From positions 1-22,243 of IMG/VR virus record IMGVR_UViG_3300048597_000226: DNA of 22,243 nt, one strand, 5' to 3'. The position numbers and the translations under genes were made by a program. Positions within the stretch are counted from its first letter, which is position 1. Each line of letters begins with the position of its first letter. A model generated the notes under the pieces. It was not told the origin of the DNA. It made no database searches and saw only the letters and a list, made by a program, of their open reading frames with translations. The DNA comes from a virus. Of this stretch, positions 1,162 through 20,387 are shown piece by piece.

Positions 1162-2854
1162 CAGACCCCTCCAGTTTGACTCCATGATCAGTCGCCCACT
1201 GCCGGACCGCCGCGGCCAGGCCTGCCGCCTTCGCGCGGCCGGCGACGTCGAGCAGCTCGGTGCGGGCCGTTGCAATCAGAGCCCGGCACTGGTCCTCGGC
1301 CGAGCCGAGCAGCCCCATCGCCTCGGCCACGCCGCACGCCGGGGCCAGAATGTCGCGGACCGCCGGTGCATGATCGGATTCGACCGAGTCGAGCCAGCCG
1401 ACGAACGTCGACGGCGACCGGGCCGCCTTCGCCGCGGCCACCGCGAGCCGCTTCCACACCCGCCGCTCGGCGTCGTTCTGGGCCCGGCAGACCGCCTCGA
1501 TCACTTGTGCTCTGTTCGTGTCGGTCTGATCGGCCGCGTCGATGCCGTCGGAGTTCGGATCGTTGCCGCCCGCACCGCCGGGGCCGTCGATCATCGGGTC
1601 GTTGAACGTCCCGCCCTGGCCGAAGTTCGCCGGCGTCAGCAGCTCGCCCGCGTCGCCGCCGAGCGTGTTCATGTTGAGCATCGACCGGGCCTCGTCCGGC
1701 GTGATGACCGGCCGGCCGCCCGTCAGGATCCGGATCCCCATGGTCGTCGACTTGAAGTCGGCCCGCTGCAGCTTCTCAAGGTTGAATTCGATGAGGTGAC
1801 TTTCGGCGTCCTTCTCTTCCTCGGACAGCAGCTTGTCCTGAGACTCGTACTCGAAGCTCGACAGCCAGAAGTCGAGGCAGTCCTGCAGGTACGACAGGTT
1901 CTCCTGTTCGAGCGAGTTGTAAGCCGACCGCTCGCCGTTGCCGAGCTTGTGAGGCGGGATGCCGAGCCAGTTGCTCATGTCCTTGACCGACATGTCGCGG
2001 GTCTGCTGCACCTGGCCGGTGTTGGCGTCGATCGTCAGCGGCTTGGCGGTCAGACCCTGCGTCAGGATCATCGTCCGGTACATGTTGTTGATGCCGGCGT
2101 ACATCCGCTCGAAGCCGTCGCGCAGCTTGATCAACTGATCTTCGCGGATCGTGCCGGGGGCCTCGAGTACGATCGACGGCCGCACGCCGTTCTTCAGGAA
2201 CACTTCGCAGAACTTCCTCGCGCCGATGCCGAGGCCGATCTCGTCGCGGGCCAGGTCGACCACGTTGTAGCCGATCAGCCCGTCGTAGCTGAGCCCCTTG
2301 ATGTGCAGGATGTCTTTCGGCTCAACCTTCGTCACGGGCCCGCCGCCGGACTCGATCACGTACCAGATCGTCCCGTCGTCTTCGCGGACCGGGTAAGTGC
2401 CCTCCGGGTCGAGCGGCCACAGCCGCAGCGGTTCGCCCGTCATCTTGTCCCGTTCGATCAGCGCGTAGCCGTTGCCGCGTGCGACCGCGTGCCCGATGAG
2501 TTGCATCCGGAACACATTGGCGGTCTGGTAGGGGTTCGGCTTCCAGCGGACGAGGCGGTAGGCCGGGTGCCGCACGTCGCGGTCCTTGCCGCCGTCCCGA
2601 CGCTTGTAGACGTGCAGGGGGAGCTTGCCGACGTCTCTGGCGATCAGGTTGACACCACGCCACCAGGGGCTGTACTGCAGCGCCGACTCCGGCTCGACCT
2701 TGACGCCCGACATGGACTCGCGGCCGCCGAGGAGGTCCCAGGCCTGCGGCGAGTTGATGTCGAACGAGGTCGACTCGATCGACCGGCGTGCCGTCAGAAG
2801 CAGGTCTGTGCCGACACCGCCGACGACCGATTCGAATGCGGGCAGGTTGCTCAC
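1151..2854 (-). CDS. phage portal protein, HK97 family
   Basis: 567 aa. It would form the dodecameric ring at the head vertex through which DNA enters and leaves. Recognisable family features: the N-terminal SALQYSPWWRGVNLIARDVG segment (portal proteins start with a similar 'permanent residents' helix), then KLPLHVYKR, HPAYRLVRWKPNPYQT, GNGYALIERD, and NWLGIPPHKLG near the middle. The common portal core ends at about residue 420; the last ~130 residues are a Gly/Asp/Asn linker followed by an Ala-rich helical extension not usual for the family. Translation starts at a GTG (2854) that overlaps the large-terminase stop (GTGA), with only a weak Shine-Dalgarno, so re-initiation from the upstream gene is likely. 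Confidence 0.93.
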   Translation of the reverse strand: MSNLPAFESVVGGVGTDLLLTARRSIESTSFDINSPQAWDLLGGRESMSGVKVEPESALQYSPWWRGVNLIARDVGKLPLHVYKRRDGGKDRDVRHPAYRLVRWKPNPYQTANVFRMQLIGHAVARGNGYALIERDKMTGEPLRLWPLDPEGTYPVREDDGTIWYVIESGGGPVTKVEPKDILHIKGLSYDGLIGYNVVDLARDEIGLGIGARKFCEVFLKNGVRPSIVLEAPGTIREDQLIKLRDGFERMYAGINNMYRTMILTQGLTAKPLTIDANTGQVQQTRDMSVKDMSNWLGIPPHKLGNGERSAYNSLEQENLSYLQDCLDFWLSSFEYESQDKLLSEEEKDAESHLIEFNLEKLQRADFKSTTMGIRILTGGRPVITPDEARSMLNMNTLGGDAGELLTPANFGQGGTFNDPMIDGPGGAGGNDPNSDGIDAADQTDTNRAQVIEAVCRAQNDAERRVWKRLAVAAAKAARSPSTFVGWLDSVESDHAPAVRDILAPACGVAEAMGLLGSAEDQCRALIATARTELLDVAGRAKAAGLAAAVRQWATDHGVKLEGSDGR

Positions 2855-4548
2855 AGGAAGTGAATCTCCGGGTCGCCCAGTTGCTGTGTGTCCATCGCCA
2901 CGCCGAGCGGCATCAACGCCGCGATCACGCCGTCGATCCGGCCCGTGCTCTTCTTCTTGCTGGGCTTGCGGCAGCCGGCCGCGTCCTGCTCAATCGCGAC
3001 GTTCATGACGCACGATCGTAACACAGGGCACCCGTTATGCAGAAATTGACGCCCCACCACATTGCGTTCGAACTCGATAACCGGGTCCTTCATGCTGAAA
3101 AAACCCTGCCCGAACCCGACGCACGCGTAACCCTTCCCCTGCAGATTCGCCGAGAGCTTCATCGCGAACCGCCGGTCGAACACGATCGTGCTGACGGGAG
3201 TCTCGGCGTTCTGCTGCTCGATCCATTCCTCGACGTAATCCGGGTCGATCACCGGGCCCGGGATCAGGGTCAGGTAGCCGTCTTCTGCCCACTGCCGGTA
3301 CGGCTGCCCGTCCTCGTCCGACTTCTGATCGATCCCCTCCTCCGGCAGCCAGAAGTGCGGCACGAGGATCCACAGGTCGCCGTTCGCGGCCGGCGGGTAC
3401 AGCTTGACTCCCGCCGTCAGGTCTCGGCTGCTCGACATGTCGATTCCGATCAGGCACCGCCGACCGGCGAGCATCTCCGGCGTGATGATGCCGCCACACG
3501 CGTCCCACCGCTCGACCGGCAGCCAGGTCGAGACCGCCTCGGTGAGCTGGTTGAGCTTGAGCCGGCGGAACGCGCCCTGCCGGCCTGGCACCGCGATCGC
3601 CTCGTCGCGTTCGGCGACCAGGTCTTCGAGCCGCACCGTCACGCCGAGGTTCGGGTTCGCCTTGGCGTAGACCTTCTCGTCCTTCCAGTCGTCGCCGTCG
3701 TCGAGCGTGTAGATCAGGGCGAACAGCCGGTCGTCCTGCCGCTTCCCCTGCAGCATGGCGACCGCCGACTTCCGCAGGTCGAACCACAGCGTCTGCTTGT
3801 CGTAACCGGCCGTCGTCGTCCGCACGATCAGCGGCTGATCGCGGGCGCCGGTCGCAGTCTGGATCACGTCCCACAGCAGCTCGTCACGCCACGCGTGCAG
3901 CTCGTCCGCGATCGCACCGTGCACGTTGAGACCGTCGAGCGATCCCGACTCGCGACCGAGCGGTTGCAGCGTGCCGTTCGCGGCGGGGAAGGCGATCGCG
4001 GACTTGAACAGTTCGAGCCGCTGGCTGAGCGCGTCCGACGCCTTGACCATCCGCTTCGCGTCTTCGTGCGTGATGCGGGCCTGGTCGAGCTTCGTCGCGA
4101 CGCAGTACACCTCGGCGCCCGCTTCGCCGTCGAGCACGAGCAGGGCCAGCGCGAGCACCGCGGCGAGAAACGTCTTGCCGTTCTTGCGAGCGACTTCGAG
4201 GTGGATGTGGCGGAAGCGACGCGTGCCGTCCTTGCGACGCCAGCCCCACACGCTGCCGAGAAGGAAGTACTCCCACGGTTCGAGGTCGATCGGCTTGCCG
4301 GCCCATCGACCCTTCGAGTGAGTGAGCAGCGAACAGAACTTGTAGATCAGTCCCGCGAGATCCGGGCGCCACACGTAACCGCGGCGGCCGGCCGACTTGA
4401 GATCGCTGAGGTGCCGGCGACAGGCGCGACGGGCCAGGTCGCCGACGACGATGCGACCAGCGACGACGTCGCGGGCGTACTTCGTCGCGGGGTCGTCAGG
4501 CTCGCTTCGACGAGTTGATGAGGGTTTGGAGCGGGTCTTCGTTGGCAT
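2851..4548 (-). CDS. terminase large subunit (packaging ATPase/nuclease)
   Basis: 565 aa, full length for the HK97-type Terminase_1 family. It translocates phage DNA into the prohead and cuts the concatemer. The N-terminal ATPase carries a Walker A-like ARKNGKT (120-126) and Walker B IADELH (213-218) with the catalytic Glu in DE. The C-terminal RNase H-like nuclease carries GIDMSSSRDLTA (Asp370), then FDRRFAMK, and DGVIA near 535 as the other acidic positions. The typical opening DPATKYARDVVAGRIVVGDLARRACRRHL is present in full. The ATG at 4548 overlaps the small-terminase 3' end by 53 nt. The gene is followed directly by portal (GTGA overlap). Confidence 0.96.
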   Translation of the reverse strand: MPTKTRSKPSSTRRSEPDDPATKYARDVVAGRIVVGDLARRACRRHLSDLKSAGRRGYVWRPDLAGLIYKFCSLLTHSKGRWAGKPIDLEPWEYFLLGSVWGWRRKDGTRRFRHIHLEVARKNGKTFLAAVLALALLVLDGEAGAEVYCVATKLDQARITHEDAKRMVKASDALSQRLELFKSAIAFPAANGTLQPLGRESGSLDGLNVHGAIADELHAWRDELLWDVIQTATGARDQPLIVRTTTAGYDKQTLWFDLRKSAVAMLQGKRQDDRLFALIYTLDDGDDWKDEKVYAKANPNLGVTVRLEDLVAERDEAIAVPGRQGAFRRLKLNQLTEAVSTWLPVERWDACGGIITPEMLAGRRCLIGIDMSSSRDLTAGVKLYPPAANGDLWILVPHFWLPEEGIDQKSDEDGQPYRQWAEDGYLTLIPGPVIDPDYVEEWIEQQNAETPVSTIVFDRRFAMKLSANLQGKGYACVGFGQGFFSMKDPVIEFERNVVGRQFLHNGCPVLRSCVMNVAIEQDAAGCRKPSKKKSTGRIDGVIAALMPLGVAMDTQQLGDPEIHFL

Positions 4549-5005
4549 CGTCCGCCGGCGGTGCTTTGAGATTGGAGCGACTCGCAGGTGTCAGGCCGAA
4601 CTCGCCGAGGAATTGCTTGACCAGGCGGAACGCCTCGCGCTGCAGTTTGACGGCCGGGTGCACGGTCATCCGTGTGCCGACCTTGATCCCGGAGTCGCGA
4701 GCGAACACCTCGACCGTGATGATCCGCCCTTCCCGGTTGAGAAGGCGACTGGCTTCGTACAGCTCGGCATGAGCCATGCAGTACGCAGTCAACGCCGACC
4801 GGTCGACCAACGTCAGAACGCCGAGCCGATCCAACTCCGGCGTGATCCGCTTCCACTCGGCCCGGGCCTCGGCACTCAACCAGCTCGGCTGCGACGGGAT
4901 GCCGCGAGTCGGCTGCGGTTCGTGCGTGTTGATCGGTCGCCGACCGGGATTCCCGGCCAGGATCTTGAGCTTCGTCGGCTTCGCGGCCGGCCCGCGTGCT
5001 CCCAT
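4496..5005 (-). CDS. terminase small subunit, P27 family
   Basis: 169 aa. It would recognise the packaging site and recruit the large subunit. The N-terminus MGARGPAAKPTKLKILAGNP is the hallmark of the P27-type small terminase: a basic leader followed by LK.L.GNPG. The central helical part (WLSAEARAEWKRITPELDRLG, then LVDRSALTAYC and a substitution of hydrophobics typical of the family) ends near residue 140, followed by a polar tail. GGGGGAG lies 10 nt before the ATG. It lies downstream of an HNH endonuclease gene and overlaps the large subunit, the standard order for HNH-dependent packaging systems. Confidence 0.92.
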   Translation of the reverse strand: MGARGPAAKPTKLKILAGNPGRRPINTHEPQPTRGIPSQPSWLSAEARAEWKRITPELDRLGVLTLVDRSALTAYCMAHAELYEASRLLNREGRIITVEVFARDSGIKVGTRMTVHPAVKLQREAFRLVKQFLGEFGLTPASRSNLKAPPADDANEDPLQTLINSSKRA

Positions 5006-5100
5006 GACGTTAGATCTCCCCCAAATCGCTCAGAAACGTGCGCAAAAATGGGCTCTGGGGCAAGGAACGGTCCCTGGCGATACTGCCAAAAAGGCAGCCC
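5006..5100. other. non-coding gap between HNH and small terminase; possible packaging-site region
   Basis: This 95-nt gap is one of the few non-coding stretches. It holds a small hairpin (CTGCC, AAAAA loop, GGCAG; 5083-5097), a partly symmetric GGAACGGTCC (5065-5074 region) and an A-rich patch CAAAAATG. In HNH-dependent phages the cos or packaging-recognition site usually lies at or near the terminase genes, so this gap is a candidate. No cleavage site can be proven from sequence alone. Confidence 0.25.
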
Positions 5101-5469
5101 CTACCCCATGCCATTATGGCAGTCCCCAGAGGCCCCCAGATTGCCTTTGCGGCACGTTCCGCGGACTCGCTTGCGACCGAAGCCGCCGTCGTACTTGGCT
5201 GTCTTGCGGTTGTGGTGGCGTGGGCAATGCCAGTCGAGGTTGCCCGGGTCGTCAGTCCCACCCTCGCTCTTCGGCTTGCGGTGGTCGAGATGGAAGTCGT
5301 GACGCCAAGGCTCGCCGCACACCTTGCAGGGTGTGTGGGGTACTGTCTCACGCAACCGCCGCCAATCAACACCGTACCCGCGCTGCGACGCGCTCGGCCG
5401 AGGGTCGCGTGCCCTCGGCCGAGCGGTCACCAGTCGCGGTGGTCGGTGAGTCGGAATGATCGGCTTCAT
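5101..5469 (-). CDS. HNH endonuclease (packaging-associated)
   Basis: 122 aa. It belongs to the small HNH nuclease group found next to terminases; in HK97-like phages such proteins act with the terminase in site-specific DNA cleavage. Visible features: GYGVDWRRLRE (31-41), a first Cys pair C48-x2-C51, the HNH core HLDH (60-63) with PKSEGGTDDPGNL (Asn77), and C82-x3-HHN (85-87) followed by RKTA. The ATG at 5469 is preceded by no clear Shine-Dalgarno. An upstream GTG at 5523 is in frame and would overlap the preceding gene body by 14 nt, giving 140 aa, so the start is uncertain. The ATG itself forms an ATGA overlap with the stop of an alternative reading frame of the preceding locus (see findings). 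Confidence 0.9.
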   Translation of the reverse strand: MKPIIPTHRPPRLVTARPRARDPRPSASQRGYGVDWRRLRETVPHTPCKVCGEPWRHDFHLDHRKPKSEGGTDDPGNLDWHCPRHHNRKTAKYDGGFGRKRVRGTCRKGNLGASGDCHNGMG

Positions 5470-5509
5470 GGTCTGAGAGTGTAACAGACACAGGGCATCG
5501 ACGCCAAAG

Positions 5510-5946
5510 TCACGAGGCCGCACGTCGACCCGCTTCGGTGAGCGAGTAGCCCTTCATCGTCTGCTCGAACCACTCGTGATCGAGCGTCAGGTGCATGCCC
5601 GTACCGCTGATGCCGAGGCGGTTGCAGATCACTTCCCTCGTCAGTGGCCCGCTGACGAGGAGCAGCTTGGCCACGGCGAGCCGTCGCCCGGATGCTGGTG
5701 CCGAGTCGTCCGCCGCCTTCTTCGGTCGCCCGACCTTGGCCCGCTGCGGCTTGCCGTGGATCCGCAGGCTGATGATCTTGCGGACCTGGTCGAGCACGCT
5801 GACCTGCTTCTCGAGTTCCTCGATCTGGACGTTGAGTTCGTCGATCGCCGCCTGGTCGGCAGTGCTGAGCAGCTTGATCAACTGCTCGCTGGTTGACGGT
5901 TCGGTTCGGTTCGGTTCGGTTCGGTTCGGTTCGGTTTCGCATTCAT
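5510..5946 (-). CDS. putative phase-variable DNA-binding protein (coiled coil, AT-hook, winged helix); out of frame as sequenced
   Basis: The body reads from just before the repeat tract to a TGA at 5510 and has about 125 residues. It contains a coiled coil (IDELNVQIEELEKQVSVLDQ), then HGKPQRAKVGRPKKA, whose GRPKK resembles an AT-hook, and a C-terminal winged-helix-like segment (LLLVSGPLTREVICNRLG, then WFEQ and GYSLTEAGRRAA). Two ATGs lie just downstream of an excellent AAGGAGG: 5946, overlapping the sigma stop as ATGA, and 5942. Between them and the body lie eight AACCG units (5897-5936). With eight units, ATG 5946 yields only 22 residues and ATG 5942 enters a 158-residue unrelated frame. 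Seven units would join 5946 to the body, and nine would join 5942. A TTG at 5881 could start a 123-aa form independently. A sequencing or assembly indel is the main alternative. The function is probably regulatory DNA binding (inference). Confidence 0.7.
5897..5936 (-). repeat. pentanucleotide tandem repeat, 8 x AACCG
   Basis: Eight perfect CGGTT units on the plus strand (AACCG on the coding strand), 40 nt, immediately after the two candidate start codons. The unit length is not a multiple of three, so gain or loss of a unit shifts the reading frame. The tract has no stop codon in any frame and every frame encodes the same cyclic pentapeptide E-P-N-R-T, which lets ribosomes cross it in all three frames. 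Confidence 0.97.
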
Positions 5947-6578
5947 ACTGCCTCCTTGAGCTGGAATCGACGTTGGAGCTTTTCAGTTGCCGCCCGCTGA
6001 ATCTGGCGGACGCGTTCTTTGCTGATGCCGAGTTCGGCACCGATCTCACGCAGGGTGTAGCCCTCCGACCGCGAGCGGATGACGAAGAACTCCTTGCGAG
6101 TACAGAGCTGGCGTGCGATCTCGACCCGGTCGCGGTCCTCGGCCGCGTCGAGGTCGACGTCCTGCTGCCCCACCATGTCTTCGAGGGCGCTGGGCATCTT
6201 GTCGCCTTCGTGGTCGCCGTTGAGGAAGCAACGCGAGAGCTTGCGGTGCGTGTTATCGGTCTTGTTGGCCGAGGCCTGGCTGACCATGAGGAAGCCGGCG
6301 CCGGGCCGGACGCCACGCTGAAGCCTCATGCGGACACGGAACCAGGCGAACGTCCAGAACTGGTTGCCGAGCGACTCGTCGAAGTCGTGAACCGCCTCGA
6401 CGAGCCCACGCCAGCCCTCCTGGACGGCGTCTTCGAAGTCGTCGTACGCGAGGACGAGGTTCTTCACCTTGGGATCGCCGCGAAGCATCCGCATGAGCTT
6501 CTTCTGGGCGTCGAGGACGAGCTGCTCCTGCCGGGCGGTCAGGGGCGGCAGGGTTGAGTAGTCGCGTTCGCGGACCAT
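5943..6578 (-). CDS. sigma-70-family RNA polymerase sigma factor
   Basis: 211 aa. It probably redirects host RNA polymerase to phage late promoters (inference from position before the packaging genes). Region 2 spans about residues 44-90 (AYDDFEDAVQEGWRGLVEAV, then FWTFAWFRVRMRLQR). Region 4 has the classic helix-turn-helix YTLREIGAELGISKERVRQI (about 174-193). The linker between them is short, and there is no region 1.1. The start at ATG 6578 follows GGAGG by 10 nt and overlaps the upstream stop as TAATG; an in-frame start 27 nt further upstream lies inside the neighbouring gene. Its own end AAGGAGGCAGTATGA provides the ribosome-binding site and first start codon of the repeat-containing gene, so the two are translationally coupled. 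Confidence 0.93.
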   Translation of the reverse strand: MVRERDYSTLPPLTARQEQLVLDAQKKLMRMLRGDPKVKNLVLAYDDFEDAVQEGWRGLVEAVHDFDESLGNQFWTFAWFRVRMRLQRGVRPGAGFLMVSQASANKTDNTHRKLSRCFLNGDHEGDKMPSALEDMVGQQDVDLDAAEDRDRVEIARQLCTRKEFFVIRSRSEGYTLREIGAELGISKERVRQIQRAATEKLQRRFQLKEAV

Positions 6579-7015
6579 TAAACTTCTACCTCCTGGAACG
6601 ACCAATCGCCCTTCGTGCGACGGACGACGATGAACTGGAACGGGAAGGCACGTGCGGCGAGCTTGAGCTTGAGCCAGGCGTCGTCCCGCATGAACCCCTT
6701 CACCTCGTGGAACTGGAGCCCGGTCGGTGTCAAGACCGGGAAGTCGGGACGGTAGTGGGTGCGGCGGGCGAGCCGCAGAGTGAAGGCCTCGAACTCGAAC
6801 CAGAGCACTTCGCCGGCCCGGCGTCGGGCCTCGAGCAGCTCGGCGTAGGCCGTCTCGGTGCGGTTCATGACCCCGCGCTGGGGTCGGTGAGTGACGCGGG
6901 CGACGAAGTCCGGCCGGTTCTGCTCGAGCAGCCTGGGAAGCCGGACGGTCAGGGGCGTGCCGGTGGCCATCGAGACCACCCTGTCAGCCAGTTTCGGGTC
7001 GAGCTTCATGCCCAT
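6578..7015 (-). CDS. PD-(D/E)XK-type nuclease, DUF1064-like
   Basis: 145 aa. The core is the DUF1064-type nuclease fold: TETAYAELLEARRRAGEV (catalytic-type Glu near 55), then HYRPDFPVL (Pro90-Asp91-Phe92), and QFHEVKGFMRDDAWLKLK, with Glu104-x-Lys106 as the E-x-K half of the motif and a following Asp/Arg helix. These are the residues expected for an active PD-(D/E)XK enzyme. In phages such proteins lie in replication modules and may process branched DNA; the substrate cannot be deduced here. The ATG at 7015 has AGGAG 6 nt upstream and follows the primase stop by 9 nt. The stop overlaps the sigma start. Confidence 0.8.
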   Translation of the reverse strand: MGMKLDPKLADRVVSMATGTPLTVRLPRLLEQNRPDFVARVTHRPQRGVMNRTETAYAELLEARRRAGEVLWFEFEAFTLRLARRTHYRPDFPVLTPTGLQFHEVKGFMRDDAWLKLKLAARAFPFQFIVVRRTKGDWSFQEVEV

Positions 7016-7024
7016 GGACGGCTC

Positions 7025-9076
7025 CTAGAACGCGTGCTCCAGCTCGCTGTTCGACCAACCCGGAACAGAACAAGGAATACAGGGTTGGTCGAACACGCTC
7101 GATTCCGGCCGGCAATCGTCGTCGAATTCGCCCGGTTCGGGTCGGCGGTGCCCGCCGTACCGGATCTTGCCGAGCGGCAGGTCGAGCAGCCGCTTGAGGA
7201 CCCGCTCCCGGGCCGACTTCGACCGGTGGCCGAGGCGGATCTGGCGGTAACGGACGATCCGCCAGCGGTGGCTGTTCGGGATCTCGACGGGCTCGATGGC
7301 GACCTTCTCCCGGGCAAGCCGCTCCTCGGTCGCTTCGTCGTCGAAGCCGTCGCTGACGACCGCCAGGAGCTTGTAGTCGTGCTTCGACTTCTCCCGCTTC
7401 GGGAGCGACCAGCCGCGCGAGCTGCCGCCCGGCTTGCGGTGGCCGTCGAAGAGGTTGATGCAGCGGATGAGCATGGCGACCGCCTCATCCTTCGGCGTCT
7501 CAGTGGCCCCGGCGAACGGCACGTTGGCGACGATCAGGCGGATCCCGGGCTCGGGGGTGTCGACGAAGAAGTACTCGCCCTTCTGGCGGCGGATGCGGGC
7601 GACGATCGTGGTCTGCTGATCGCGGGGTGCCTCGATGGCCCAGACGCTCTCACCGGCCACGCCGGCGATCCGGCAGCGGTAGTTGATGGCCCACTCGCCG
7701 CGGTGCAGGTGGCCGCAGGCGGGGCACGACCAGGCCTCGCAGCGGGGCTGGATCAGGCAGAAGATCTTCTCGTCCGTCTTCTGGTCGGTGCGTTCGGTGA
7801 CGATGGTGCGGGCACGCGGGCACGGTGCGAACTCGTGCCGGATCTTCTCGATCTCGGCGGCGGCCGTGCCGACGATGTCGGGCTTCGTGGCCTGCTCATT
7901 GCGGCGGCGTCGCTCGACCTCGGAGCAGGACGGCGTACCGTCCGGGCCGGACTCGGCGATGTCCCAGCCCTCGGCGTAGTACTTGTCCCACATGCGGGCC
8001 TGCAGCTCGACATCGATGCCGTTGACGATCTTCGGCGTGTCCGGGGCAGTCTCGGCGGCCGCCTGGTCGACCTCGGCCAGGTGCTTCGCGATCCGGTTGT
8101 GCCCGACGCGGGCCCGGGCCTTGATCTTGCGGCCCTCGTCGCCTCGCTGGCGATCCTCGAGGAGGAAGCCGGTCTCGCCCGGCTGCTCGAGCGCCCACTT
8201 GCACTTCGAGCGGATCTGGGAGTCGGACCAGGGCGGCGAGCAGCCGAGGTTCCACTCGCCGATCACGTCGCAGGCTTCTTCGAGCGACAGGGCGAAGCCG
8301 CGGGTGACCCGGGTGACGACGGCGTTGGTGTGCTGCCAGCCGCCCTGCCCGGCGACGGCGACGGGCGTGCGGGCCAGGTAGGCCCGGGCCCGGTCGATGC
8401 GGCGGTCGCCGTTGACCCGCCGCAGGAACTCGGCGTACCGGACCTCCTGCGGCGTGACGCTCGGTGCGGTGGCCGCGGTGAGCTGGTCGGCGAGCCAGGC
8501 GGGCGGTGCGGCGAACGGCACGTCCCACGGTGCCGACAGCCAGCGGTACTCGTGGCCGGTGTAGTGGACGCTGGGAGCGATCTGGATGAGGTGGTTGCCG
8601 GCGAGCAGCTCGACGCCAGGGCCGAGCGTGATCGCGGACCGGCCGAAGTGCTGCTGCTGCCAACGGAAGTACCAGTGGTAACCGCCGCCGCCCGTCTCGT
8701 CCTGGGGCGTCGTCGGCAGCTCACCGTGCGTGGCGAGCAGTCGGGCGAGCGTCTCGGTACCGCCGTTGCGGGGGTCGACGTCGAGGACGGCCAGCCCGGC
8801 CCGACCGGTAGCGAGCGCCCAGCCGACCGAGCTGGGGTCGTCGTGGAACCGTTGCAGGTACAGACCGAGGACGTTGGGGTTGAGGCCGTTCTCGAGATCC
8901 CGCCACTTGCGACGCGGGTGTTTACCGGCCGAGGTGTCGCCGGGCTTGCAGCGAGAGCAGCGGCAGCTCGACTGACCGGCGGGCGGCTCGACCCGGACGC
9001 CCCACGTCGGGATCAGCGCGGCGGGGGTCGAGTCGATCCAGTATTGAAGTTCGGCGGGGGTTCGGTAGCTTTTCAT
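7025..9076 (-). CDS. bifunctional primase-polymerase (AEP) with long zinc-binding C-terminal extension
   Basis: 683 aa. The N-terminal AEP/Prim-Pol domain (about 10-230) primes and may extend DNA. It shows CRCSRC (38-43 region), GKHPRRKW, the metal-binding AVLDVDPRNGG (Asp99, Asp101), GGGGYHWYF (His134) and ELLAGNHLIQIAPS. A primase C-terminal-like helix set follows (about 250-330, ACDVIGEWN, then WSDSQIRSKCKWALEQP). The last ~320 residues form a separate region with C-x10-C-x2-C-type cysteines (PRCEAWSCPACGH) and no helicase motifs. The ATG at 9076 was chosen for its AGGAGA 7 nt upstream; it gives a protein beginning MKSYRTPAELQYWI. The helicase needed with it may be the RecD2-like protein or a host enzyme. 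Confidence 0.88.
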   Translation of the reverse strand: MKSYRTPAELQYWIDSTPAALIPTWGVRVEPPAGQSSCRCSRCKPGDTSAGKHPRRKWRDLENGLNPNVLGLYLQRFHDDPSSVGWALATGRAGLAVLDVDPRNGGTETLARLLATHGELPTTPQDETGGGGYHWYFRWQQQHFGRSAITLGPGVELLAGNHLIQIAPSVHYTGHEYRWLSAPWDVPFAAPPAWLADQLTAATAPSVTPQEVRYAEFLRRVNGDRRIDRARAYLARTPVAVAGQGGWQHTNAVVTRVTRGFALSLEEACDVIGEWNLGCSPPWSDSQIRSKCKWALEQPGETGFLLEDRQRGDEGRKIKARARVGHNRIAKHLAEVDQAAAETAPDTPKIVNGIDVELQARMWDKYYAEGWDIAESGPDGTPSCSEVERRRRNEQATKPDIVGTAAAEIEKIRHEFAPCPRARTIVTERTDQKTDEKIFCLIQPRCEAWSCPACGHLHRGEWAINYRCRIAGVAGESVWAIEAPRDQQTTIVARIRRQKGEYFFVDTPEPGIRLIVANVPFAGATETPKDEAVAMLIRCINLFDGHRKPGGSSRGWSLPKREKSKHDYKLLAVVSDGFDDEATEERLAREKVAIEPVEIPNSHRWRIVRYRQIRLGHRSKSARERVLKRLLDLPLGKIRYGGHRRPEPGEFDDDCRPESSVFDQPCIPCSVPGWSNSELEHAF

Positions 9077-11576: not shown

Positions 11577-11938
11577 GGCGACACCGCCTTCGGCTCGCTG
11601 TCGATGTCGGCCTCGTCGGAAACGCGTTCCAGGTTGCCTGCGTTTGTGACGATCAACCCGTTCCGGCTTTTCGACAGGTAACACACTTCGTCACCTTCGA
11701 TTGCCCGCACGATGCCGGTGGCACTATGGTCCTTCTTCCACCGCACCGGATCTCCGACCTCCAGCTTGGGGACGTGCGGGCGCAGATCGCACTCGCGGTA
11801 TCCCGTGACGAGGCCGCCCCTGCTTCCCCATTGCAGGTCGTAGAGGTAACCCTGCACGTGAACCGCAACGACCGTCGCCGGCCCGCGTGCGTCGCCGTAA
11901 TCGACTTCCTGCCCCACGCTGAACTTCGGTTCGGACAT
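11573..11938 (-). CDS. small beta-rich protein with two SH3/KOW-like repeats
   Basis: 121 aa, function unknown. Two similar segments, KFSVGQEVDYGDARGPATVV and later LEVGDPVRWKKDHSATGIV, look like successive small beta-barrel (SH3/KOW-like) repeats, each opening with a G-x-x-V turn. The C-terminus is acidic. The ATG at 11938 overlaps the DnaN stop as TGATG; a GTG 3 nt earlier is also possible. The stop overlaps the ASCH gene start (GTGA) after AAGGCGGTGTCGCCGTGA. Confidence 0.65.
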   Translation of the reverse strand: MSEPKFSVGQEVDYGDARGPATVVAVHVQGYLYDLQWGSRGGLVTGYRECDLRPHVPKLEVGDPVRWKKDHSATGIVRAIEGDEVCYLSKSRNGLIVTNAGNLERVSDEADIDSEPKAVSP

Positions 11939-13044
11939 CACGCACCTGCCTTCTCGTTCATCTGTATCATCACGTGCTTGCCTTCAGACTTGCCCGCGGT
12001 GAACGTCATCGGGCGGTGCTGCTCGCACCGCATCTCGACCGTCTCGGCCTCGACCGACTGAAGGTATTCGGCCAGGTGCCGTGCGTTGATCCGCAGCTTG
12101 ACGCCCGGGCCTTTGACGGTGGCCGGGAGTCGGCCGACAAACCTGCCGAGGTCGCTCTTCGACTCGACCTCGATCTGCGAGCCGTCCGCCCACAGGCTGA
12201 ACGCCTTGTCCTCGGCCATGATCCCGGCCTGTCGGACCTTCTCCAGCATCGCGGCGCGATCGAATTTCACGACGACCTTGCGGCGGCTGTCCTCGAGCAG
12301 CGGTTCGTACGGCGGATAGACGCCTTCCCGCAGTCGACACGTGATCGTCATGGACTCGCAGGTGAACTGGATCGCGTTCTTGCTGACGCCGATGTCGACC
12401 TGCGTCTCTTCACCCATCCCCTTGATGGATGACGCTACCACCCGCAGAGCCGGCGTCGGAATGATGCACTTGCACGCAGTGAGGACGGCCGCTTCCCGGC
12501 TGACGAACGAAAGGCGGAGCGTGTCGGTCGCGACCAGGCGGAACTCAGACTCGGCCGCCTCGATTCGGACGCCGTCCATTACATGATTCGAGTTGCTCGC
12601 ACCGCGGGCCGATGCGAACGCTACGCGTCTGATCATCGTCGTCAGATCGGCGGACGTCGTTTCGACGCAGACCGGCAGGCTGCCGGGCATGTCGGGGAAG
12701 GCGTCGGCATCCTCCGTCGCGACCTCGTACGAAGCGGGCCACGCCGACACTTCGAGGCTGCCGCTGCCTTCGGACCGGAGGCTTACCGTGTCCGCGCTGC
12801 CTTCCTTCAGGATGGCGGCGACTCGCGGCGAGAGCAGTACTCGACCCGGCGTGTACGTGCCCTGCTTCGGCCGCGAGACCGACACGGTGACGTCGATGTT
12901 CGTCGCCGTCAGCGACCACGAGCCGCCGCCGTCGACGTTTAGCAGGGCGTTGCGAATCACCTTCTTCGGTGACTCTTCGGGTGCGATCCGCAGCACCGAT
13001 TCGAGGTCGCGTAGAAACGAGACACGGTTGACTTCCAGACGCAT
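11938..13044 (-). CDS. dnaN: DNA polymerase III beta subunit (sliding clamp)
   Basis: 368 aa, the usual clamp length. It forms a ring that tethers DNA polymerase and other enzymes to DNA. The three clamp domains can be followed: domain 1 from MRLEVNRVSFLRDLESVLRI with SLTATNIDVTVSV, domain 2 with DLTTMIRRVAFAS and HVMDGVRIEA, and RLVATDTLRLSFV; domain 3 with VKFDRAAMLEKVRQAGIMAE to the C-terminus. The end is KHVMIQMNEKAGA rather than the usual P-M-R-L-style tail. The start is ATG 13044, with GGGGG 7 nt upstream; an ATG at 13050 overlaps the helicase stop but sits too close to the ribosome-binding site. It belongs with the helicase gene immediately upstream. No polymerase gene is in the window. 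Confidence 0.92.
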   Translation of the reverse strand: MRLEVNRVSFLRDLESVLRIAPEESPKKVIRNALLNVDGGGSWSLTATNIDVTVSVSRPKQGTYTPGRVLLSPRVAAILKEGSADTVSLRSEGSGSLEVSAWPASYEVATEDADAFPDMPGSLPVCVETTSADLTTMIRRVAFASARGASNSNHVMDGVRIEAAESEFRLVATDTLRLSFVSREAAVLTACKCIIPTPALRVVASSIKGMGEETQVDIGVSKNAIQFTCESMTITCRLREGVYPPYEPLLEDSRRKVVVKFDRAAMLEKVRQAGIMAEDKAFSLWADGSQIEVESKSDLGRFVGRLPATVKGPGVKLRINARHLAEYLQSVEAETVEMRCEQHRPMTFTAGKSEGKHVMIQMNEKAGA

Positions 13045-13046
13045 GA

Positions 13047-15422
13047 TCATTCCCCCTTGAGCAGCTCGACCAGACCAGTGACCCGACTCTCCAGTGCGAC
13101 CCGCCGGATCTGCTTCTCGACCGTCTCGGACTTGCCGATGACGAGGCAGATCTTCTCGGCCCGGCTGATCGCGGTGTAATGCCATTCGCGGCTGGCGATC
13201 ATGCCGGCCGCCTCGTCCGCGAGAATGATGACGACCGGCCAGCCGCTGCCCTGCGACTTGTGGCACGTGATCGCGTACGCCAGATCGAAGTTGCAGCCGC
13301 GGCCGCGGTCCTGATCGTCGTCGTCGCGGTCCCGCCCCTGGTACGTGGCGGCGACGTGCACCTTGACGGCTCGGTTGCCTTCGAACTGGAAGATGGCGGC
13401 GGTCGGACCGATGGCCAGGCACTCGCCGATCTCCCCGTTGGCGACGTACCACTCGGCCGCGGCCTTCTTGCCGCCGACCTTCGCCGCCTTCGGGTCGCGG
13501 GCCGGCACCCAGCGTGCGGCGTCGGTGCAGATGAAGCCGTTGCCACGGTCGGGCTCGACGGCCGAGTACTGGCCGTTGCGGAGGCAGATGATCTTGTCGC
13601 CGACGTGGAAGTCGTGACCGGCCGAGGCGGCGTTCGGGTTGAGTGTCTTCTGGAGCAGGTCGTTGACCGGCTTGCGGCTCAGCTCGGACCGCTTGTTCGC
13701 GGCGACGAGTACCTGCACCTGCCAGACCGGGTCCCACGAGCCCTCGGCCTTCGGGTCGTTGTCGAATCGCTGCTTCATGCGGCCGAGCAGCTCGACCAGG
13801 CGTTCGAGCGACTCGGCCGGTTTGGTCGCGCGGACGAGCCGCAGGTTCGCACCGCTCGGCAGGTCGAGCCGGTCGGCGAAGGTCGGTGGCTTGCCGTCCT
13901 TGATGCGGGCACAGCTCTCGACGATCAGGCCGGCGTTGCGGCGGATCTCGGTGAGCAGGCCGAGCGGCAGGCCGGACGCGGCGAAGTCCCGCAGCGGGGC
14001 ACCGTGGCCGACGGGCGGCAGCTGGTACGGGTCGCCGATGAACAGGATCTGCGTGCCGTCCGAGCACGCGTCGAGCAGGCTGTACATGAGCGACGCGTCG
14101 AGCATCGACGACTCGTCGACGAGGATGAACTTGTGATGGAGCGGCAGGTGCCGGCTGTGTTCGAACTCCTCGTCCTGCGGGCGGTAGCCGAGCAGCTTGT
14201 GGATCGTCAGGGCCTCGACCTCGACGCCGGCGAGCTTCATCGCGATCGCACAGCGGACCGCAGCCTTGCCGGTCGGGGCACAGACGGCGATCAGCTCGCG
14301 ACCGTGCCGGAACAGCAGCTCGCGGACCAGGGCGGCCGCCGAGTAGGTCTTGCCGGTGCCGGGCGTGCCGAGGAACAGGCCGACCGGTCCGGCGGTCGCC
14401 TTGCCCAGCTCGGCGAGCTGGTGCGGGCTGAGCCCGGCGTTGGCCGGCGGCACCGGCCACGTGGCCTTCGTCGCCTGGAGTCGGCGGATGCGGGCCACGA
14501 TGCCGCGTTCGTCGTCCGCCCGGCGTCGCACGGCGACACAGTCGCGACCGTCGAGCTTGCGTTCGGCCATGATGCCGGACCGCACGGCGAGCCGGATCGC
14601 CTGGTCGGGCGCGATCCCCTCGTGATGCCGGCCGCAGTTGTTGTGGATCGCGTCGTCGCAGACTTTACGCTGGCACCAGGTCGAGCCGTCGACCGCGGCG
14701 GCACCGTACGCAGCCCACAGGGCCTGACGCTTGAGGTCGTCGGGCGGCAGGCCGAGATCGACGTGCAGCTTGTCGGCCCGCGGCAGGGGCACGTCGAACA
14801 GCGTCGTCAGCTTGAGCGGGTCCTTGCGGACCTTGGCGGCCGCGGCGGGCCCCCACGCCCGGACGAGCTTCGCGGTCAGCTTGCGGGAGAAGCCGCGGCC
14901 GGCGAGCAGCCGGAAGAGGTCGAGCTTCGCGTGCTCGTCGTCGAGCATCGACTTCACGGCCCGCGACACGCTCGTCACGTAGTCGAGGTCCATCTTGATC
15001 ACGGCCGCGATTCGGTCGGGCGACTCGATCAGAGTCGGGATCGTCAGGCCGGCGAACTGCTTCCACAACTCGACGCCCTGGGCGTATTCGAACGGCGTGT
15101 TGTCGGTGATGAATTCGAGCAGCCCGTCGCGGGTGGTCGGGGCGTCGAGCATGACCAGGTCGAACTTGAACTGCCGGCCCCAGCGACCGGCGGTCTCCCA
15201 GCGCCCGGCGAAGCTGTAGTGGCGACGCTCCAGGATCTCCTGATCCGGGTCTTCGCCCTTCGCCTGCGTGCTGCCGTTGATCTCGATGATGACGAATCCA
15301 CTGTCTTCATCGCGGTAACGGATTCGAGTCACCTGCCCGGTCAACAGGTCGCAGTCGCTGACCTGTACTCCCCGACCGCTGGATCGCAGGGACTTGTAAC
15401 TGGGAGCCGCCGTAGTCGCCAA
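13047..15422 (-). CDS. RecD2-like superfamily 1 DNA helicase
   Basis: 791 aa. It would be a 5'-3' helicase working in phage replication or recombination. An OB-like beta-rich N-terminus (TGQVTRIRYRDEDSGFVII) and helix-hairpin-type region precede the ATPase core: Walker A GTPGTGKT (352-359), CAPTGKAA near 383, Walker B LVDESSM (434-440), motif III GDPYQLPPVG (463-472), then C-terminal CHKSQGSGWPVVII and HYTAISRAEK, as in the RecD/TraA family. The start is a TTG at 15422, chosen because AAAGGAGGTG lies just upstream with correct spacing and no ATG fits. It is followed 2 nt later by dnaN. Confidence 0.9.
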   Translation of the reverse strand: MATTAAPSYKSLRSSGRGVQVSDCDLLTGQVTRIRYRDEDSGFVIIEINGSTQAKGEDPDQEILERRHYSFAGRWETAGRWGRQFKFDLVMLDAPTTRDGLLEFITDNTPFEYAQGVELWKQFAGLTIPTLIESPDRIAAVIKMDLDYVTSVSRAVKSMLDDEHAKLDLFRLLAGRGFSRKLTAKLVRAWGPAAAAKVRKDPLKLTTLFDVPLPRADKLHVDLGLPPDDLKRQALWAAYGAAAVDGSTWCQRKVCDDAIHNNCGRHHEGIAPDQAIRLAVRSGIMAERKLDGRDCVAVRRRADDERGIVARIRRLQATKATWPVPPANAGLSPHQLAELGKATAGPVGLFLGTPGTGKTYSAAALVRELLFRHGRELIAVCAPTGKAAVRCAIAMKLAGVEVEALTIHKLLGYRPQDEEFEHSRHLPLHHKFILVDESSMLDASLMYSLLDACSDGTQILFIGDPYQLPPVGHGAPLRDFAASGLPLGLLTEIRRNAGLIVESCARIKDGKPPTFADRLDLPSGANLRLVRATKPAESLERLVELLGRMKQRFDNDPKAEGSWDPVWQVQVLVAANKRSELSRKPVNDLLQKTLNPNAASAGHDFHVGDKIICLRNGQYSAVEPDRGNGFICTDAARWVPARDPKAAKVGGKKAAAEWYVANGEIGECLAIGPTAAIFQFEGNRAVKVHVAATYQGRDRDDDDQDRGRGCNFDLAYAITCHKSQGSGWPVVIILADEAAGMIASREWHYTAISRAEKICLVIGKSETVEKQIRRVALESRVTGLVELLKGE

Positions 15423-18186: not shown

Positions 18187-18489
18187 TCACTCCTCGAAGC
18201 CGTCCCCGGACCCGTACCCGTACCCGGACCCGTCCCCGGACCCGTACCCGTACCCGGACCCGGACCCGGACCCGGACCCGGACCCGTCCCCGGACCCGTA
18301 CCCGTACCCGGACCCGTCAGCATGCGCGGCATTGGCTATGAACCCGTCGCGGTCGCGGTGCTCGCTTATGCCGCCAGCGATAGGATTCCCGTGCGTATTC
18401 GCGATGAACTTCTTCACGCCTTCGAGGCAAGCCCCGGCGTCAAGCACGTCGCAGACCGTCACGGTCGGTTGGAAGTGAGGCCAGCCCAT
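18187..18489 (-). CDS. small protein with Gly-Ser/Tyr/Asp repeat tail
   Basis: 100 aa. Residues 1-58 form a domain (MGWPHFQPTVTVCDVLDAGA, then GVKKFIANTHGNPIAGGIS) similar in style to phage proteins that carry a V-x-D-V-L-x-A-G-A-C motif. The remaining ~40 residues are a strict alternation of Gly with Ser, Tyr or Asp, ending DGFEE. The tail is encoded by a hexanucleotide repeat (18201-18318), so unit gain or loss keeps the frame. The ATG at 18489 overlaps the upstream stop (TAATG), with GGGAGG 7 nt before. Such tails occur in some phage proteins; the role is not known. Confidence 0.7.
   Translation of the reverse strand: MGWPHFQPTVTVCDVLDAGACLEGVKKFIANTHGNPIAGGISEHRDRDGFIANAAHADGSGYGYGSGDGSGSGSGSGSGYGYGSGDGSGYGYGSGDGFEE
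18201..18318 (-). repeat. hexanucleotide/30-nt tandem repeat coding Gly-Ser/Tyr/Asp
   Basis: About 19 imperfect hexamers (plus strand CCCGTA, CCCGGA, CCCGTC and similar). A 30-nt higher-order unit recurs identically at 18201-18230, 18231-18260 and 18286-18315, showing recent expansion. Codon-multiple length means size changes alter the protein tail without a frameshift. Confidence 0.95.
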
Positions 18490-18752
18490 TACGCCGCCTC
18501 CCACTTCGCCGCAGCCTCGGGCGTAACCTCGAACACGGCTGTCACTTTGCGGACTTCGATGTCCGCACGGGCCGAGATTTTCGACTTCGGCGTCGGGCCG
18601 GTCTCGGCCAGTTCCATCACGCCGCGAGTCGTGCCCCAGTAGATGCCCATGCGGGCACGCGACAGCTTCACCGTGTCGCCGGTCGTGTCCGTGGCGTACC
18701 CGAAGAACACGCCGCGATGCTCGGTGCAGATGATGACAGGACGCTCGTTCAT
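18489..18752 (-). CDS. small phage protein, DUF6948-like
   Basis: 87 aa, starting MNERPVIICTEHRGVFFGYA. The run R-P-V-I-x-C-T-E-H-R-G-V-F-F-G-Y with a later T-R-G-V-x-x-L-x-x-T-G-P-T and V-T-A-V-F-E-V-T-P-E-A-A marks a well-populated phage family (DUF6948 style). Predicted to be a small beta-barrel-like protein. Function unknown. GAGGA lies 8 nt before the ATG; the stop overlaps the next start. Confidence 0.75.
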   Translation of the reverse strand: MNERPVIICTEHRGVFFGYATDTTGDTVKLSRARMGIYWGTTRGVMELAETGPTPKSKISARADIEVRKVTAVFEVTPEAAAKWEAA

Positions 18753-19496: not shown

Positions 19497-20387
19497 CTAC
19501 TTCCGTTTCATTGCGCGGTACTGCTCAAGCGTGAGAATTGACTTGGTTCTGGCATCGTAGACGATGTGCCCGCTCCACTGGTCCGCCGTCAAGTTGGTAT
19601 CACCAATGAAGGCTTTGCCGTATATGTCAGATGTCGGATCGGCGTCTGCTTCGTGCTGCACTTCTTCACGGAGCAGGGCATCGACAACTTCTTTGGGCGG
19701 CAGCGGATTCGAGAAGTCGAGCGAGCACGTTCTCAATCCTTCGACGCGGTTCAGAGTCACGGTGTAGCGGCGGGCCCATTGGGTTTGGACCGTGATCGGG
19801 CGGCGTTCTCTTTTCGCAGACTTCCTTCTTTCGACTGACGTCTCGTATTCTTTCGCAACCTTGCCAGCCTGCTCGTCAGCAGCCTCGTAGAGAAACGCTG
19901 CGACCACGACCGATCTCGCTGTCATGAGGCGGGCAATTCCGGCTTCGGCGAGTTGGCGTTCAAAGTTCCCTTGCGGCCTCGATGCCGCGAACTGTCTCAG
20001 TTCAGCCTCGAACGCTAATGGGCTGGTTTGACCGTTGACGTGTGACTCGCAGATTTCGGCCAAGCGGACGAGCGGGGTGATCTGCACTTGTGCAATCACC
20101 TTGTCGTGATCGGCGGTATCACGTGAACGCTTGCCGTCGACCGCCACCCAGACAGCGGCGGCAGACAGGAGGACAATGACGGCGATGAACAGGAACGCGA
20201 ACTCGGAGCCATGCAGTTCCAGTGCGTTCTTCGGCCGCACTACAGTCACCGACGCTTGCGGCTCCGCTTCCTTCGCCGCCCCCACCACCAACCCCTTCAT
20301 CCCGCACCGGCACTTTGCAACCTTCCCCGCTCGGTCATCCGGCAGGTTGAACGTCAGTCCGCAGCCCGGGCAGTTGTAGGGGATCAT
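19497..20387 (-). CDS. zinc-ribbon, single-pass membrane protein; possible moron
   Basis: 296 aa. It opens with a zinc ribbon (NCPGCGLTFNLPDDRAGKVA, then CRCG), followed by a polar linker, one transmembrane helix (FAFLFIAVIVLLSAAAVWVA, about 63-83) and a ~210-residue soluble domain probably outside the cytoplasm. Such ribbon-plus-helix architectures are frequent in planctomycetes. The gene converges on the repressor, 4 nt apart, and is outside the lytic operon, which fits a lysogenic-conversion or superinfection-exclusion gene (inference). AGGAG lies 7 nt before the ATG. No functional domain recognised. Confidence 0.75.
   Translation of the reverse strand: MIPYNCPGCGLTFNLPDDRAGKVAKCRCGMKGLVVGAAKEAEPQASVTVVRPKNALELHGSEFAFLFIAVIVLLSAAAVWVAVDGKRSRDTADHDKVIAQVQITPLVRLAEICESHVNGQTSPLAFEAELRQFAASRPQGNFERQLAEAGIARLMTARSVVVAAFLYEAADEQAGKVAKEYETSVERRKSAKRERRPITVQTQWARRYTVTLNRVEGLRTCSLDFSNPLPPKEVVDALLREEVQHEADADPTSDIYGKAFIGDTNLTADQWSGHIVYDARTKSILTLEQYRAMKRK

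Follow-up and report, generated by a model that had tools for sequence, protein, structure and literature searches.

The window, i.e. the whole stretch of DNA analysed, is one virus record, 22,243 bases long, and its gene content resembles that of a temperate phage. Its replication genes are a primase and a RecD-like helicase; a divergent HTH_3 repressor-like gene, a portal and a head protease are also present, and at the right end there is a fragment that we take, by the look of its translation, to be integrase-like. Likewise by look only, the 370-codon frame at 11938-13050 is presumably DnaN-like (sliding-clamp-like), and the protein encoded at 19497-20387, with an N-terminal CPGC/zinc-ribbon-like part and a TM-like region, we take to be planctomycete-like.

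All features of the locus described here lie on the minus strand. A RusA-like Holliday junction resolvase (6578..7015) and a Sigma-70-family factor (5943..6578) stand upstream. They are followed by a coding frame of 128 codons plus stop (5510..5896), hereafter the body frame, whose product is predicted to have a long N-terminal helix, a GRPKK motif and a weakly winged-helix-like C-terminal part. Downstream lie an HNH endonuclease (5101..5523), which overlaps the end of the body frame, and the small (4496..5005) and large (2851..4548) subunits of the terminase. The site therefore adjoins both a sigma factor and the packaging genes, as had been noted in the original prediction. Between the sigma factor stop and the body frame lies a tandem array of the pentanucleotide AACCG.

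The AACCG array and the start codons ahead of it

A single period-5 array was detected with TRF at 5897-5936, with 8.0 copies and a 100% match, in agreement with the eight perfect units originally described. The array (AACCG)8 is 40 nt long (1 mod 3) and begins ten bases past the A of the ATG at 5946 (array 5936-5897), the minus-strand sequence around it being CTCAAGGAGGCAGTATGAATGCGA(AACCG)8TCAACCAGCGAGCAGTTGATC. The longest perfect period-5 run in simulated windows was 19 nt (300 Markov-1 simulations), and a set of 65 further loci from phages or prophages, 614,804 bases in total and fetched by protein similarity and not by repeat, contains no perfect period-4/5/7/8 array of at least 20 nt. 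Pentanucleotides were found to be rarer than any other repeat class in a survey of mycobacteriophages (PMC6426759). The array is much longer than chance would produce, and it has the properties expected of a contingency locus, namely a perfect short-unit repeat, a unit length that is not a multiple of 3, and an extent beyond chance. The tract is free of stop codons in all frames, again as predicted, and its codons are unadapted to the genome: CGA accounts for 8% of Arg codons, and the tract scores 0.0 per codon under the codon model described below, whereas most genes reach +0.3 to +0.4.

The sigma factor gene ends in ...CTC AAG GAG GCA GTA TGA, with the Shine-Dalgarno (SD) sequence AAGGAGG (5951..5957) contained in its last codons. 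The duplex of this motif with the anti-SD (-11.4 kcal/mol) is among the strongest of the window starts examined. Two ATG codons, both named in the original prediction, share this one SD sequence and lie in different frames: ATG 5946 (5944..5946) overlaps the sigma stop (TGA 5945-5943) in an ATGA arrangement, and ATG 5942 (5940..5942) abuts it (TGAATG). The region around the two codons is the least folded among the start regions examined.

The number of units determines which of these codons is in frame with the body. With 1 mod 3 units (7, 10), ATG 5946 is joined to the body frame, giving a protein of 143 aa at 7 units; with 0 mod 3 units (6, 9), ATG 5942 is joined to it, giving 145 aa at 9 units. 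At the 8 units seen, neither is in frame: ATG 5946 opens a leader ORF of 22 residues (MNAKPNRTEPNRTEPNRQPASS*, 5878..5946), and ATG 5942 opens an ORF of 158 codons (5466..5942) that is non-coding over the body by codon statistics. These frame counts at 7, 8 and 9 units are the ones given in the original prediction. A further candidate start is a TTG codon in the body frame (TTG 5881, 5879..5881), codon 6 past the tract. Its SD (-2.8 kcal/mol) is the weakest among the starts examined, and most of the region around it is base-paired; between the AAGGAGG and this codon, the body frame contains no ATG, GTG or TTG. Because the SD is strong at the ATG codons and weak at TTG 5881, with no body-frame start in between, the start signals sit upstream of the array and are cut off from the body at 8 units. 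The array is thus placed between start codons and a coding body, with the unit number setting the frame, as in contingency loci, and more than one initiation codon lies upstream in different frames, as in multi-start loci of the lic2A type.

The body frame and its product

Coding potential was scored with a codon model that had been trained with the remaining genes of the window, for which known genes in the correct frame mostly score +0.2 to +0.5 per codon. The body frame scored +0.323 per codon with a GC3 of 0.86, and the two alternative frames over the same DNA -0.503 and -0.441. As the body frame out-scores the other two, the 158-residue frame from ATG 5942 is not a gene.

The original prediction had described the product as a coiled-coil/AT-hook/winged-helix protein. 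In structure models the N-terminal helix (body residues 1-40) has a pLDDT of 83-95, and the GRPKK motif is found at residue 56, so that the long helix and the motif hold; the winged helix is weakly indicated, by a match of the C-terminal part to PF25213 (HVO_A0261_N) of 20.1 bits, below the curated cut-off of 35. The HVO_A0261 N-terminal domain is, we assume, winged-helix-like. The AlphaFold models were made without an alignment and are too poor for fold comparison past the N-terminal helix; confidence in the C-terminal part was low, and a confident fold was not obtained for the body. No match of value was returned by searches of PHROG, NCBIfam and PDB with the body, and no homologues were found in viral contigs, genome contigs, phages, plasmids or PDB. 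Relatives sought via the sigma factor, TerL, the primase, the AAA protein and the DNA pattern at the sigma end yielded distant phages only, none of which has the sigma-body junction. Given the GRPKK motif, the long N-terminal helix and the weak wHTH match, a DNA-binding role is plausible. Considering also its place between the sigma factor and the HNH and terminase genes, the body frame probably encodes a DNA-binding protein that regulates the late or packaging stage.

Known repeat switches and AACCG tracts in other phages

Repeat-driven contingency loci are known from bacteria, where they mostly concern surface structures and restriction-modification genes and often act against phages. It is an established arrangement for a repeat to be preceded by several start codons that lie in different reading frames (PMC4235727). 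In lic2A and similar loci of Haemophilus influenzae, as that article summarizes Dixon 2007, the number of units selects the start codon and the level of expression. The present locus resembles lic2A, as far as it is described in that summary, in having a non-triplet repeat at the 5' end of the gene and start codons in different frames upstream; lic2A is a bacterial surface-structure gene with a tetranucleotide, whereas the candidate switch described here has a pentanucleotide and belongs to a phage gene whose function is probably regulatory. Pentanucleotide arrays within a coding region are exemplified by hsdM (GACGA)n of H. influenzae, where the threshold is three units and (GACGA)4 switches at a high rate (PMC2651432); hsdM, in contrast to the gene described here, belongs to a bacterial restriction-modification system, and a dual start is not described there. 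For Neisseria, the detection threshold is five units (PMC5953494). By comparison with these values, the eight units of the present array exceed the published lengths able to switch (PMC2651432, PMC5953494).

A further precedent is pil1 of Streptococcus gallolyticus, where a gene can be under the control of pentanucleotide repeats in the leader ORF that precedes it (PMC3894217). Common to pil1 (GCAGA)n and the present locus is a pentanucleotide array that is translated in a leader ORF, the length of which is set by the number of units (PMC3894217). The pil1 leader controls a transcription terminator, whereas here no terminator is predicted and two of the three states fuse the array to the gene. 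Specifically, a terminator hairpin soon after the leader stop, which would mark attenuation of the pil1 type, is absent: no terminator-like site (attenuator hairpin then T) was found in 4900-7100.

IMG/VR was scanned for at least five AACCG units, which returned five contigs only, a count from which records near the present one may be left out. The AACCG tracts of other contigs (L064/L069, L065, L067, L068, L073, L076) have the unit in common with the present array, but the phages and genes are unrelated. In IMGVR_UViG_3300033463_000051, an unrelated phage of 101,082 bases, one locus with a tract in non-coding DNA occurs at both ends, with 5 units versus 6 (L064 1-224, L069 11188-11416; 224/229 nt, with zero mismatches and one 5-nt gap). 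This pair suggests that the AACCG unit slips in phages; it may stem from the coexistence of both lengths in a single phage population or, given its position at the contig ends, from an assembly effect. The tracts of L065, L067 and L073 are located in 5' leaders shortly ahead of phage gene starts, and the one in L073, with four units, belongs to a 22-codon leader ORF that overlaps with the beginning of the gene after it. Within coding sequence, the tract of L068 forms a linker (EPNRTEPNR within a protein), and a 292-codon gene in L076 (minus strand, ~2904 onward) begins with ATG(AACCG)3, in frame behind GGAG, where one unit gained or lost would shift the frame. L076 differs from the present locus in having only three units, as against eight. 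Judging from these placements in leaders, intergenic DNA or coding frames, the AACCG unit is not specific to switches. The combination of an SD sequence, two ATG codons and a long array is seen at the present locus and in none of the other AACCG contigs.

A candidate frame switch and its alternatives

We favor, at a probability of roughly 0.48, the reading that the locus is a translational simple-sequence-repeat switch of the contingency-locus type, with two starts in different frames, captured out of frame and situated where such a switch would be unusual, at the junction between regulatory and packaging genes of a temperate phage. The small gene directly follows the sigma factor gene and would probably be translationally coupled to it. 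AACCG units would be gained or lost by replication slippage. With 1 mod 3 units, the protein would be made from ATG 5946, at a 4-nt spacing to the SD, and with 0 mod 3 units from ATG 5942, at an 8-nt spacing and probably at a different level. With 2 mod 3 units, as in the eight seen, translation would produce the 22-residue leader ending at TTGA, and only weak re-initiation at TTG 5881 would be left. It counts against this reading that any one sequence has a chance of 1/3 of falling into the out-of-frame class. The phase switch proposed in the original prediction is thus retained as to its anatomy, the reality of the coding body and the placement of the strong SD at the ATG codons and not at TTG 5881; what is modified is the state at 8 units, which, in view of the TTGA overlap, may be one of low expression rather than strictly off.

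Among the alternatives, neutral slippage fares best, although we regard it as unlikely. It holds that the EPNRT repeats of the tract form an N-terminal tail that is mutable and unstructured, that was expanded by chance and whose frame changes are not selected; the contig would then represent a transient or frame-broken allele, with an in-frame number in most such phages. The in-frame tail of L076 and the linker of L068 are AACCG tracts in unrelated phage proteins, the unadapted codons of the tract are as expected for a recent expansion, and the codon statistics kept in the body fit recent loss as well as they fit switching. As a tail or leader made of AACCG units may do no harm, this explanation stays alive. 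It has to account, however, for eight perfect units placed precisely between a coding body and a strong SD that serves two ATG codons, which is a narrow place for chance, and for the absence of such an array from ~615 kb of other phage loci.

A second alternative builds on an overlap that did not figure in the original prediction: at 8 units, the stop of the leader (TGA 5880-5878) overlaps TTG 5881-5879 as TTGA, an NTGA arrangement. TTG 5881 could accordingly be the working start, used by re-initiation after the 22-residue leader; the tract would then be a leader that is mutable and lacks structure, and expression would be on at 8 units. Since TTG makes up only 0.3% of 5041 internal codons, TTG 5881 may be a genuine secondary start; the RecD gene in the window also starts with TTG, behind a strong SD, and pil1 provides the precedent for a leader ORF that contains a controlling pentanucleotide repeat. 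We nevertheless consider it improbable that this is the main mode of expression: the weak SD and the mostly paired start region of TTG 5881 speak against it, the strong SD lies ~70 nt upstream at the ATG codons, the TTGA overlap is used only at 2 mod 3 units, and the attenuator-like hairpin was not found. A stem-loop at TTG 5881 that had appeared notable (z -2.2 versus shuffles) was discarded as ordinary, as 29% of 61-nt windows in the same genes fold equally well or better.

An error of assembly or base calling in the tract length, by which the true genome would have 7 or 9 units and the gene would simply be on, is suggested by the derivation of the sequence from a single virus record and by repeat tracts being the commonest site of length errors. 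We judge it very unlikely, as the 40-nt tract fits within one ordinary read and short-read accuracy at pentanucleotide repeats is reported to be about that of non-repetitive DNA (PMC4235727); moreover, frames are uninterrupted in the other genes checked in the window, which makes general frame damage by assembly unlikely. Programmed ribosomal or transcriptional frameshifting within the tract, joining ATG 5946 (-1) or ATG 5942 (+1) to the body at 8 units, could profit from the stop-free tract, in which a slip anywhere would work, but is hardly credible given the absence from the tract of an X XXY YYZ heptamer, of a homopolymer run and of a stimulatory structure (-0.7 kcal/mol).

If the favored repeat switch operates, it would take a place in the biology of the phage that we propose tentatively, as less probable than the switch itself: a temperate phage would carry a three-state switch of its own (start 1, low, start 2), placed in the operon that links the sigma factor to the packaging genes, and clonal phages or lysogens would differ in the regulator by slippage. 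Phages would then be applying the contingency-locus strategy to themselves, betting on slippage in their own regulatory operon; in the open-licence literature searched, a phage regulator switched by such a repeat is not described.

The window contains a second array, at 18205-18316, with a unit of 6/18 nt (CCCGGA / CCCGGACCCGTACCCGGA) and 6.2 copies of the 18-nt unit. As this unit length is a multiple of 3, gain or loss of units brings about no frame switch. The ORF concerned (18187-18504), on the minus strand, has weak codon statistics, and the array lies in its GYGSGDG-type tail.
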